Notes under the pieces: generated by a model
Database searches by the model: none
Told to the model about the DNA's origin: nothing
What the model saw: only the letters and a program-made list of their open reading frames with translations
Shown here: positions 44,845 through 64,000 of the stretch, piece by piece
Numbering within the stretch: the first letter of the stretch is position 1
Layout of the letters: every line of letters starts with the position of its first letter
Assembly (NCBI GenBank): GCA_916610825.1
Contig: OU744447.1
Span: forward strand, 36,635,024 to 36,699,023
Origin: Haliclystus octoradiatus
Taxonomy: Eukaryota; Cnidaria; Staurozoa; Stauromedusae; Haliclystidae
Reading direction: 5' to 3'
Length of the DNA stretch: 64,000 nucleotides
Program-made: the position numbers and the translations under genes

Positions 44845-46117
44845 GATCAGGGGTCATCAATAAACCAGATTGCAGAGAAGGGTGATTGCACCCCTGAGAA
44901 GAAAGAGCGTTTCCTGGAAACGTTTTGGGAAACAGAATTATGTTTCAGTAATAATTTGCAGACGATTGCTACCAGTGATATTTCGTTATTGGAGATCTCG
45001 GAAATTGCATCACAAGCGTACAGTTGCGGGTACAAGGTGGAGGGGTACCAATCATCACAGTAGGCCTACAGATGTATCTTTAAATCCTCCCTGAAAAAGT
45101 TGGCACTGGAGGCACACTAAGAGTAACAAAAGCTCTACAAACATCAATTTTGCGGGCATTTTAATCAGCAATTTTAAAGAATCTGTTGCCTTGCTTGTTC
45201 GAACCACAATAACAAAAGCAGAGACTAGTGAGAAGAGGGGGAATCTTTGCAAGTAGCCTGGCGTACATGGAAGGTAGGCGGGTTATTTGGAAGTGTACTG
45301 CTGAATACAGGGAGGGTCCAGTCCAACTCTGACTCTCTGAGTACTTCAGGGAGGGCCCTTAAACGTGTGATACTGTGTTATATTAAATTGGTTTTACTAT
45401 TATATTTACGTAGTTTCCGAGAGTATTTCAGCAAAGTCCGAGGCAGTTATGTGTCTGTTAATGACTTTTTAAGAAGTAAAATTAAACTTGAGCTCAAATG
45501 TGTCTGCTCTTTGGAAAAATAATTAATTCAAATTTGAAGGCTCTGGATAAATGATGACGTATCATGTTCTTTCGATGATGTTTTCTTAAAAAAGCTTGTG
45601 AATTTCGTCTAACCCTTAGAAAATTATAATATGCTTGTTGTGTGATGTGTGATACCATAAAATCGCACAAACATCTTCGCAATATTACCCAGATAAACTA
45701 ACTAACTGACTTGAAGGTATTGCTTATTTTGTTATTGAGGCAAATGGGAAATTAGAATATGAAGGAATCAACGAAAATAACGAAGAAAAGAATGTCAACT
45801 CGCGCTAGGCCCATATCAACTCGTGTCAGTTCGAATTCAGACAAACTCACTTGAATATTTTCACTTATCCATCTCATCTCAGTTAAATATATCTTCTTCA
45901 TAAAAATAAATTCTTTTTCGCATATGAAGCTGTACTGATTCCATCATTTCAAACAATTTTACATTGTGTTTCCAACAATTTCATTCTTACAAAATCTGGA
46001 AACTGCAAAGTTTAAACCGCCATCGCCATGATTAAAAGCTCAATATGAAGTTATGAACGTCAACTAAAACGCCAAGTAGCTTTACGCAGAAAACGCAGCC
46101 GCGTCGATGGCATTGAA
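44845..46117 (+). repeat. Left arm of the large inverted repeat around the insertion nest
   Basis: Inverted copy of 62727-64000. Matches include ATCAGGGGTCATCAATAAAC, GTTGCGGGTACAAGGTGGAG (diverged on the right), GAGTACTTCAGGGAGGGCC and AAGTAGCTTTACGCAGAAAA. The frames at 44870-45094 (plus) and 63748-63975 (minus) give related peptides, as expected of the repeat. Confidence 0.85.
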
Positions 46118-46194
46118 AAAGCAAGGAAATTTCTCATGCCTGTTACTTCTTTCCTGATTTAACTATGTACTACACAATTGTGGAATTTTTAAAG

Positions 46195-46742
46195 CATTAT
46201 ACATATCAACAGAAAATTTAGACCCGACTCACCTTATTTCAGAGCTTTCCAACATCCAACTGTCCACTATTTCCGATCCAACTAGGCTTGCCCAAGAAAT
46301 TGAGTCGAATATATTATCTATTTTGGATCGTCTGTGTCCCACGAGAACAAGGATTGTAAAACCAGATCAACCAGTATGGCTAACTCCCAGGCTTGTTAAA
46401 GCAATTGTTAATCGAAACCGTCTCTATAATAGATACATCAGAGAGAAAAGCAAGAAGAATCGTCAAAACTACATCACAGCTGAAAAAGAAGCATCCTACA
46501 TTAGAAGATTTGAGATTCGATCAGCAATAAAAGATATTATCGATAACAGCGTACCAAATGACTTTTGGAGAAAGCTAAGACCCTGGTTGCCAAATAATAA
46601 AAAGAGAGCATCAAATGACATTACATTGGAGGAAGACGACCTACTGGAATCAAACCCTCAAAAAGTCGCAAATATCCTCAATGAATTATTTTCACCAACG
46701 TTTGAAATCAACCAAGATGAAAGTCAACTACACCAACACTCG
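46195..46742 (+). pseudogene. LINE 5' piece, interrupted by BEL/Pao element
   Basis: Codon-like from about 46210, open from 46323 to the insertion point: SILDRLCPTRTRIVKP, VWLTPRLVKAIVNRNRLYNR, FWRKLRPWLPN. This is the linker between endonuclease and RT in jockey/CR1-type ORF2. No endonuclease is seen, so the insertion was 5'-truncated. The frame continues in the same phase at 59410 once the BEL/Pao element and one ACTCG are left out. Confidence 0.8.
46738..46742. other. Target-site duplication ACTCG, left
   Basis: Matches ACTCG at 59410-59414; five bases, as usual for BEL/Pao. Confidence 0.85.
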
Positions 46743-47173
46743 TGTAGAACTAATTCACCACATTTGTTGTCATAGTAACGTCACTATAGTAACGTCCATT
46801 GTTCACATGTTTCTTTGTATCATTACTAACTGTCACGTTGTCATTTTTACTAGTTTTTGTTACGTTTCCATGCTTCATGTCAAATCACGTGCATTTCCCA
46901 AATTTGGTATCATTTTGTAACATTGTGTTTCTTATTGGTCAATTTGTAACCATTGTCTATGTGCCTCATGTCATGCCATTTTACACTCCCAAACCACTGT
47001 TCGTCTTGGGGCCGTTGAATAAGGTCATTATATATTGTTACAGTTACTTGACGTTGTTTTATCTTGGCTCTTCTTCTTCCTTGTCTTGTCTTTCTTGGCC
47101 TCAAGCGGCAGTCATAATTACAGTCCTCTGAAGTCGACCTTGGCTTATTAATAGCCAAATTGCAAATTCTACA
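46743..47173 (+). repeat. BEL/Pao 5' LTR
   Basis: 431 bp, TG...CA. Compared with the 3' LTR I see one T/C difference (ACATTGTG here, ACATCGTG there). Open frames within are not genes. Confidence 0.92.
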
Positions 47174-61073: not shown

Positions 61074-61824
61074 TATTATTATTATTATTATTATTATTAT
61101 TATTATTATTATTATTATTATTATTATTATTAATTATTATTATTATTATTATTATTATTATTATTATTATTATTATTATTATTATCATTATTATTATTAT
61201 TATTATTATTATTATTATTATTATTATTATTATTATTATTATTATTATTATTATTATTATTATTATTATTATTATTATTATTATTATTATTATTATTATT
61301 ATTATTATTATTATTATTATTATTATTATTATTATTATTATTATTATTATTATTATTATTATTATTATTATTATTATTATTATTATTATTATTATTATTA
61401 TTATTATTATTATTATTATTATTATTATTATTATTATTATTATTATTATTATTATTATTATTATTATTATTATTATTATTATTATTATTATTATTATTAT
61501 TATTATTATTATTATTATTATTATTATTATTATTATTATTATTATTATTATTATTATTATTATTATTATTATTATTATTATTATTATTATTATTATTATT
61601 ATTATTATTATTATTATTATTATTATTATTATTATTATTATTATTATTATTATTATTATTATTATTATTATTATTATTATTATTATTATTATTATTATTA
61701 TTATTATTATTATTATTATTATTATTATTATTATTATTATTATTATTATTATTATTATTATTATTATTATTATTATTATTATTATTATTATTATTATTAT
61801 TATTATTATTATTATTATTATTAT
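61074..61824. repeat. (ATT)n microsatellite, about 250 units
   Basis: Nearly pure ATT for 750 bp, with one TAATT break near 61131 and one ATC near 61186. It begins directly after the LINE 3' end (ATAATAAACTTACTAACTT), so it probably grew from the LINE tail. The long Ile/Asn frame across it is not a gene. Confidence 0.95.
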
Positions 61825-62726
61825 ATACGTCAGTATATAAATAGGCTTTAGCTCGTTATTTTGTAAAACGTACCCACGCGGTAACTGCGGCATTCTTGTA
61901 TTGCCACAGTAAAATACGAGGTTAAATAAATAAAATGAATGAACGAATGAATGAACCTTGGTGTCATGTGAGTTACAGCCAGGTGTTGGTTGGTCGGCCC
62001 ATCGAAGAACAATACAACGAGGTGTGAACAAGAATTGAAATTTGCTGACTTCAGCTATTTTGAATTTCAACATTTTGTAAACAAACTGTCGAAAAAAACT
62101 ATAAAAAGTCAAGTTTACGGTATTATTTTGGATCAAATTGGAGCAACAGAATTATAAATAATACATTACATTATCTCGAAGGACTGTATGAACATTATGA
62201 AGACCTTTTATTGGCGTAGAATACAAAATAAAAGGAGAAAACATCATGTTTTGACGGAGCGATCGCCATCGTTGGAAAATTGTAAGAACTTCCGTCGTTT
62301 TGAATCATGATTTAAATAATCAAAATCAAAGAAATATTCAAAATTTAAAATCAATTCTCCAACATACAGCATTACTCTGATTCAAAATTCCATTTCTCCG
62401 TAAATATATAATTAAAAATTGACAATATGACAGAATAAGCGATCGAACTATAAACTTTGAAAATGATTCAAGCAAGTTTGTTTACATTATTAGTGTTTTA
62501 TTCACCAACCAGCGCTCGATAAAAATTCACGTGATACAAAGGTGCGCTGTGATTGGGCACACCATAGTTTTGGTTTCTGGCACACTTTTTAACCTTAAGT
62601 TTTATTAGGCCCTCACTGGAGCGCCGCGCGGAAATGAGGGCCGTGATGGAGTGAGGCTAGCACAGGTCTATGTAGGTAAACGGAAAATTCAACTCGCGTC
62701 AGCTCTATTTAGTATCCAGTCTACTT
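61825..62726. other. Repeat-derived spacer
   Basis: Contains a second possible LINE-type tail near 61930-61958 (AATAAATAAAATGAATGAACG...), a hairpin relative at 62608-62671 (see 24021-24095) and, at 62678-62726, a string shared with 40198-40246. Confidence 0.5.
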
Positions 62727-64000
62727 TTTCAATGCTATCGACGCGGCTGCGTTTTCTGCGTAAAGCTACTTGGCGTTTTAGTTGACGTTCATAACTTCAT
62801 ATTGAGGTTTTAATCATGGCGATGGCGGTTTAAACTTTGCAGTTTCCAGACTTTGTAAGAATGAAATTGTTGGAAACACAATGTAAAATTGTTTGAAATG
62901 ATGGAATCAGTACAGCCTCATCTGCAACAAAGTATTTATTTTTATGAAGAAGATATATTTAACTGAGATGAGATGGATAAGTGAAAATATTCATTCAAGT
63001 GAGTTTGTCTGAATTCGAACTGACACGAGTTGACATGAGCCTAGCTAGCGCGAGTTGACATTCTTATCTTCGTTATTGGCGTTGATTTCTTCATATTCTA
63101 ATTCCCCATTTTGCTTCAATAACAGAATAAGCAATACCTTCAAGTCAGTTAGTTAGTTAATTTGTATGTGGGTAATATTGCGAAGATGTTTGTCCACATC
63201 ACACAACAAGCATATTATAATTTTCAGCGGGTTGGGCGAAATTCACAAGCTTTGTAAAGAAAACGTCATCGAAAGAACATGATATATCATCATTTATCCA
63301 GAGCCTTCAAGTTTGAATTAATTATTTTTCCAAAGAGCAGAGACATTTGAGCTCAAGTCAATTTTGCTTCTTAAAAAGTCATTAACAGACATAACTGCCT
63401 CGGACTTTGCTGAAATACTCTCGGAAACTACGTAAATATAATAGTAAAACCAATTTAATATAACACAGTATCACACGTTCAAGGGCCATCCATGAAGTAC
63501 TCAGAGAGTCAGAGTCAGACTGGACCCTCCCTGTATTCAGCAGTACACTTTCAAATAACCCGCATACCTTCTATGTACGCCAGGCTACTTGCAAAGATTC
63601 CCCCTCTTGATCACTAGTCTCTGCTTTTGTTGTTGTGGTTTGAGCAAGCAAGGCAACAGATTCTTTAAATTGCTGATTAAAATGCCCGCAAAATTGATGT
63701 TTGTAGAGCTTTTGTTACTATTAGTGTGCCTCCGGTGCCAAACCTTTTCAGGGACGATTTAAAGATACATCTGTAGGCCTACTGTGATGATTGGTACCCC
63801 TCCACCTTGTTCCCGCAACTGTACGCTTGTTATGTAATTTCCGAGATCTCCAATAACGAAACATCACCAGCAATCGTCTGCAAATTATTACTGAACTGAA
63901 ACGTAATTCTGTTGCCCAAAAACATTTCCAGGGAACGCTCTTTCTTCTCAGGGGTGCAATCACCCTTCTCTGCAATCTTGTTTATTGATGACCCCTGATT
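62727..64000 (-). repeat. Right arm of the large inverted repeat
   Basis: Inverse of 44845-46117, with noticeable divergence and small indels. The arm reaches the window end, so its outer boundary is uncertain. Confidence 0.85.

Follow-up and report, generated by a model that had tools for sequence, protein, structure and literature searches.

A four-deep nest of transposable elements in Haliclystus octoradiatus whose innermost retrotransposon was probably copied along with the DNA transposon that carries it

Whether the order of insertions in a nest of transposable elements can be read from the outside to the inside is the question raised by a stretch of 64,000 nucleotides from the staurozoan Haliclystus octoradiatus, called the window here (C2:36635024-36699023; genome 262 Mb, 33 contigs), in which paralogs from the same genome served as controls. 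The nest appears to be real and four-deep, with a LINE, a BEL/Pao element, a foldback-like DNA element and a Ty3/gypsy-type element, built by ordinary transposition, and its innermost retrotransposon would have been carried along when the DNA transposon around it was copied, a reading to which we assign a probability of roughly 0.87. All processes involved are of known kinds.

An earlier note on this DNA had counted five levels, the outermost consisting of inverted arms at 44845-46117 and 62727-64000 that hold the LINE. The inverted arms extend from 40199 to 46121 and from 62724 to 67059 (91.7% identity over 2357 columns) and are two copies of what we take to be an abundant DNA transposon with 9-bp target-site duplications (TSDs), labelled X in this analysis:

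40199 to 46121, minus strand: left copy of X, inverted relative to the right copy, with outer end GGTAAACGG..
62666 to 62674: TSD GTCTATGTA of the right X copy, its partner at 67060-67068 beyond the window
62675 to 64000 and on to 67059 beyond the window, plus strand: right copy of X

The right copy is complete, with inverted ends GGTAAACGG.. and the 9-bp TSD GTCTATGTA. Inverted ends with a TSD of constant length, 9 bp, are equally found in seven of nine other X pairs, the other two pairs showing no TSD, and a pattern search with up to 3 mismatches located the X terminus at 242 places in the genome (reversed control, 0). The left copy lacks about 50 bp at its inner end, at 46121, and has extra internal repeats; of the 40 matches listed (128 candidates), the window alone runs across the join at 46121. 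Because the right arm is complete with its own TSD and the left arm is a separate, opposite copy, the LINE sits between two X copies and not within one, and the arms add no level to the nest proper, which has four.

The two outer levels of this nest are made up as follows:

46189 to 61072, plus strand: 5'-truncated LINE, interrupted by the BEL/Pao element, delimited by paralog homology, with a reverse transcriptase (RT) domain in 59739-60395
46738 to 46742: TSD ACTCG, left
46743 to 59409, plus strand: BEL/Pao element including nested inserts, LTRs at 46743-47173 and 58979-59409
47919 to 47963, plus strand: BEL gag up to the foldback-like element, 15 codons counted from the first in-frame ATG; a paralog (L072) reads on
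59410 to 59414: TSD ACTCG, right
61073 to 61824, plus strand: (TTA)n, about 250 units, at the 3' end of the LINE; the alignment of paralog L007 reaches 61101

The LINE combines a non-LTR RT (Pfam RVT_1, 1.8e-27 in a profile search) with a simple-repeat tail. Homology to five of the seven paralogs begins at 46189 or 46191, that to L003 at 46461 and that to L007 at 46289, and inspection by eye recognised no TSD of the LINE at either end. The BEL site is uninterrupted in all seven paralogs fetched (of 16 matches besides the window), and L003 carries the identical ACTCG there in a single copy. Between the BEL LTRs, which are 431 bp long, Pao-type protease, RT and integrase domains are found: DUF1759, Peptidase_A17 (3.1e-21), DUF5641 (5.1e-31) and Integrase_H2C2 (4.1e-09) score above the Pfam cut-off, while RVT_1 (28.9 bits against 29.6) and rve (26.7 against 32.6) fall just below it. 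TSDs of BEL/Pao elements range from 4 to 6 bp, and ACTCG, at 5 bp, lies within this range. On the two sides of the BEL site the LINE reads in the same frame, but stops lie at 59706 and 59736 and the next break between 60344 and 60398; the LINE is therefore broken independently of BEL as well. The re-joining of open frames across the inserts, put forward earlier for both hosts, thus holds for BEL gag and in the LINE only locally.

The gag frame is cut after codon 15 by the third level, which itself carries the fourth:

47958 to 47963: TSD AGTTCA, left
47964 to 53439, plus strand: foldback-like DNA element, termini TATGAAGTGCC.., terminal inverted repeats (TIRs) with 20/41-bp tandem repeats
48879 to 48882: TSD CATG, left
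48883 to 51935, minus strand: RT-less Ty3/gypsy-type element, LTRs at 48883-49087 and 51731-51935
49130 to 51649, minus strand: 839-aa open frame encoding gag (zinc knuckles), a protease motif and integrase (rve 2.4e-09)
50049 to 50053, minus strand: CAACT, junction of the deletion that removed 1845 bp present in the long form
51936 to 51939: TSD CATG, right
52313 to 52574: solo LTR of another LTR element, TSD CATAC at 52308-52312 and 52575-52579, right end placed by eye
53440 to 53445: TSD AGTTCA, right

The empty foldback site in BEL was read in one other BEL copy (n=1), a 401-bp piece (L072, C2:11984560-11984960) with a single AGTTCA and a frame open from the gag ATG to its end; in the window the gag frame overlaps the last 18 bases of the foldback. 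Allowing up to 3 mismatches, the foldback terminus is present 142 times in the genome (control, 0). Exact 6-bp TSDs flank nine of 11 other foldback pairs and two of the 11 show none; two of the nine good pairs have common flanks and are possibly one duplicated locus. Because the list of open reading frames holds none of at least 150 aa inside the foldback besides that of the gypsy-type element, the foldback would have been mobilised by a transposase encoded elsewhere. The gypsy site is uninterrupted in 23 of 30 fetched foldback loci, with CATG in all except L061 (GATG); these 23 are 15 elements by coordinate count, or 14 if L043 and L044, whose flanks are the same, are one duplicated locus, and the remaining seven are the window, the loaded copy on C7 described below and five with matches that do not span the site. 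The gypsy TSD of 4 bp in the window differs from the 5 bp of all 11 other copies with both ends read, which we count against the preferred reading. The interruptions of LINE by BEL, of BEL by foldback and of foldback by gypsy described in the earlier note are thus borne out by exact duplications (ACTCG, AGTTCA, CATG) and by uninterrupted paralogs at each junction.

The innermost step is seen in a different light through a second foldback at C7:14171533-14181356, which holds the same gypsy insertion at the same base and has its own TSD, GGGAAG, on both sides. This copy was found twice, through the gypsy LTR at C7:14177385 and the foldback end at C7:14181070, with the spacing of the window; its flank, read at length on one side, is X sequence and not BEL. 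Compared with the window, outside 49751-50230, it is colinear; the left TIR with the CATG junction and the gypsy start differs by 13 mismatches in 1787 and the rest of the gypsy element (50231 to 52312) by 7 in 2082 bases without gaps, and the right TIR by 1 in 299. The part at 52564-53146, where 583 columns hold 8 mismatches and 3 gap openings, differs more than the others and equally counts against the preferred reading. At LTR offset 138, a C is common to the window and C7 copies, where the 27 other fetched LTR loci have T. The right arm of the C7 copy also contains an insert, about 4.6 kb long, that is absent from the window. Since the C7 foldback combines the identical gypsy insertion with its own TSD, foldback and gypsy most likely moved as one unit, and of the two foldback jumps at least one took place with the gypsy element already inside; it may have entered gag as a passenger of the foldback.

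A side insertion, the solo LTR, accompanies the four-level nest and was absent from the parts of the nest named before. It is missing from the C7 foldback, which has a single CATAC site, and several other genome matches of its sequence occur as pairs.

The sequence of events began with the truncated LINE, followed by the BEL/Pao insertion into it and by insertion of the foldback-like element, with its 6-bp TSD, into BEL gag; the foldback holds the RT-less gypsy-type copy, and the two most likely transposed together. Because the carrier moved with its cargo, nesting cannot be read as an outside-to-inside order here, and the succession of insertions is less certain than had been claimed: the evidence supports a LINE that preceded BEL and a BEL element that preceded the foldback; a last place for gypsy is not established. 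The LTR pairs do differ by about one base, as stated in the earlier note (1 mismatch in 431 bp for BEL, 1 in 205 bp for the gypsy-type element), and the dating proposed there was carried out; these counts give too few changes for a date. With Poisson 95% ranges of 0.0001-0.013 and 0.0001-0.027, respectively, the argument that several rounds happened in a short time is weak. The window and C7 copies differ at 20 of 3869 positions, and at this rate the chance of at most one change in 431 is 0.35; with so few changes, the BEL insertion and the split of the two loaded foldbacks cannot be placed in order.

A strict outside-in course, in which the gypsy element entered the foldback only after the latter had reached BEL gag and the loaded foldback was then copied to C7, is compatible with the nesting alone and with the change counts, and is possible, if distinctly less probable. 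Against it stands the loaded foldback elsewhere, through which nesting no longer gives the order, and an estimate for the split (20/3869) that exceeds the BEL LTR difference (1/431), not significantly so (0.35). Families with long TIRs are plausible substrates for gene conversion, by which one of two foldbacks could have acquired its gypsy element from the other with no transposition of a loaded foldback; such a tract would need to span to both termini, up to which the two copies are nearly identical, while the other 28 fetched foldback loci, from a search that scored 40 of 207 candidates, show 85-97% identity over the first 287 bases, and we regard this course as improbable.

We give very little credence to an assembly artefact from misjoined high-copy repeats. 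Every part of the nest is a repeat; on the other hand, misjoins would not create the exact duplications that flank BEL, foldback, gypsy, solo LTR and the right X copy, or the uninterrupted paralogs for BEL, foldback and gypsy. Equally, it is hardly credible that the outer arms form one large foldback element containing the LINE, as the identity of the inverted arms might suggest, given the completeness of the right arm with its own ends and TSD, the 9-bp TSDs of further X pairs and the abundance of the X terminus; nor was a TSD common to 40199 and 67059 seen in the flanking sequences. The preferred reading thus remains transposition of a foldback loaded with a gypsy element.

The cargo itself has a history of its own. 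The 839-aa frame, whose zinc-knuckle and protease motifs were assigned by eye, contains no RT or RNase H, and the window copy lacks 1845 bp (615 codons) of a long copy, with breakpoints at CAACT repeats. In a long-form piece (L071), RVT_1 and RNase H follow the protease motif, and rve lies beyond the deletion junction in the window frame; together they give the order PR-RT-RNase H-IN of Ty3/gypsy elements, and the window copy is a derivative of such an element. Among 40 LTR matches listed of 194 candidates, LTR pairs are spaced at 4693-4742, 2848 or 2008 bp, the window having 2848. The junction word of the RT-less form occurs exactly at 19 places genome-wide, including the C7 copy, which the foldback produced. 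The long-form word, which denotes absence of the deletion at one side and not a full RT (at C7:172728 it lies in a copy with 2008-bp spacing), has 28 exact matches, or 36 when up to 3 mismatches are allowed. One further genome search scored 40 of 249 candidates, its counts being at least values. Since four other short copies lack the base differences near the junction that are common to nine long copies, the deletion most likely arose once and was then amplified, and the RT-less copies appear to be an amplified non-autonomous lineage. Splicing was considered as source of the RT-less form and rejected, as the segment of 1845 bp that is missing shows no GT..AG boundaries and is flanked by CAACT microhomologies; a deletion or template switch fits the loss of RT better.

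The gag-PR-IN frame is open in four of five fully covered copies. Private codon changes (synonymous to nonsynonymous) number 1:13 in the integrase part and 7:10 in the gag part of short copies, and 4:7 and 1:5, respectively, in long copies, compared with the roughly 1:2.7 that unconstrained change would give; the frame survey and the 7:10 include L035 (C2:23331100), tallied with the short copies, whose junction word is the long form. In this tally, with its small numbers, no signal of constraint on the RT-less frame is seen in the short lineage. The lineage would have spread using RT from long-form relatives. That an RT-less gypsy element with open gag, protease and integrase persists in two ways, through RT supplied in trans and as foldback cargo multiplied as DNA, is a speculative extension that we consider unlikely.

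At this locus the order of nesting misleads in a way that can be checked: a central retrotransposon copied with its carrier cannot be assumed to be the youngest insertion, and schemes that date nests from outside to inside may err at this one. Furthermore, a lineage with gag, protease and integrase that has lost RT, its exact junction at 19 places, provides a test case for the spread of defective retroelements. Titles and abstract beginnings in a literature search contained no RT-less gypsy copy carried by a foldback.

Among known systems, BEL/Pao LTR retrotransposons share the BEL-type Pfam domains and the 5-bp TSD with the element described here, whose gag is, in contrast, split by a foldback. 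Non-autonomous deletion derivatives of Ty3/gypsy elements likewise have LTRs that hardly differ from those of long relatives, one common internal deletion and several copies, whereas here only RT and RNase H are lost and the gag-PR-IN frame is kept open. Tm1 (PMC3169594), for which nested insertions have been reported, and Tetris (PMC4079207) share long TIRs of short tandem repeats and a variable middle with the foldback of the window. The TSD, however, is 8-10 bp in both, mostly 9 bp in Tm1, as against 6 bp in nine of 11 other foldback pairs, the window and the C7 copy; because of this difference, the element was not filed as Mutator/Foldback in spite of its foldback build. Clusters of nested LTR elements surveyed in plants (PMC6911290) show the same stacking of insertions, but the nest of Haliclystus mixes a LINE, a BEL element, a DNA element and a gypsy-type element, and one of its levels would have moved as cargo.

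The target-site duplication of the Ty3/gypsy-type element in the window, a copy lacking the RT (48879-51939), is 4 bp long, while its length is 5 bp in all 11 other copies with both ends read. Another copy of the BEL/Pao element with two close LTRs is located at C2:11982269-11985941 (C1, C2, C7 and C11 being contigs of the same assembly); its length is only 3.7 kb and it is therefore internally shortened. Two more close BEL LTRs, at C1:38164835 and C1:30916241, look solo.

The family of the nested foldback has a second, short member in the window (36392-37746), the arms of which have diverged. 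On C7, where a further foldback copy carries the same gypsy insertion, the right arm harbours an insert of approximately 4.6 kb (C7:14171832-14176441) with an AAATC-type repeat at one end, perhaps a LINE tail.

The 3' end of the LINE in the nest adjoins a TTA repeat of approximately 250 units, 99% regular (61073-61824), and 67 bp of filler (46122-46188) separate the LINE from the fragment of X, a DNA transposon with 9-bp target-site duplications. Among the matches listed, C11:5958085-5958166 is 91% alike to window positions 46124-46209.

Elsewhere in the window, frames on the minus strand (6120-9264) look, as judged by eye, like another LINE with RT. Equally by eye, a frame of 806 aa (19144-21564) displays RT-like and GIY-YIG-like features and might represent a Penelope-like element.
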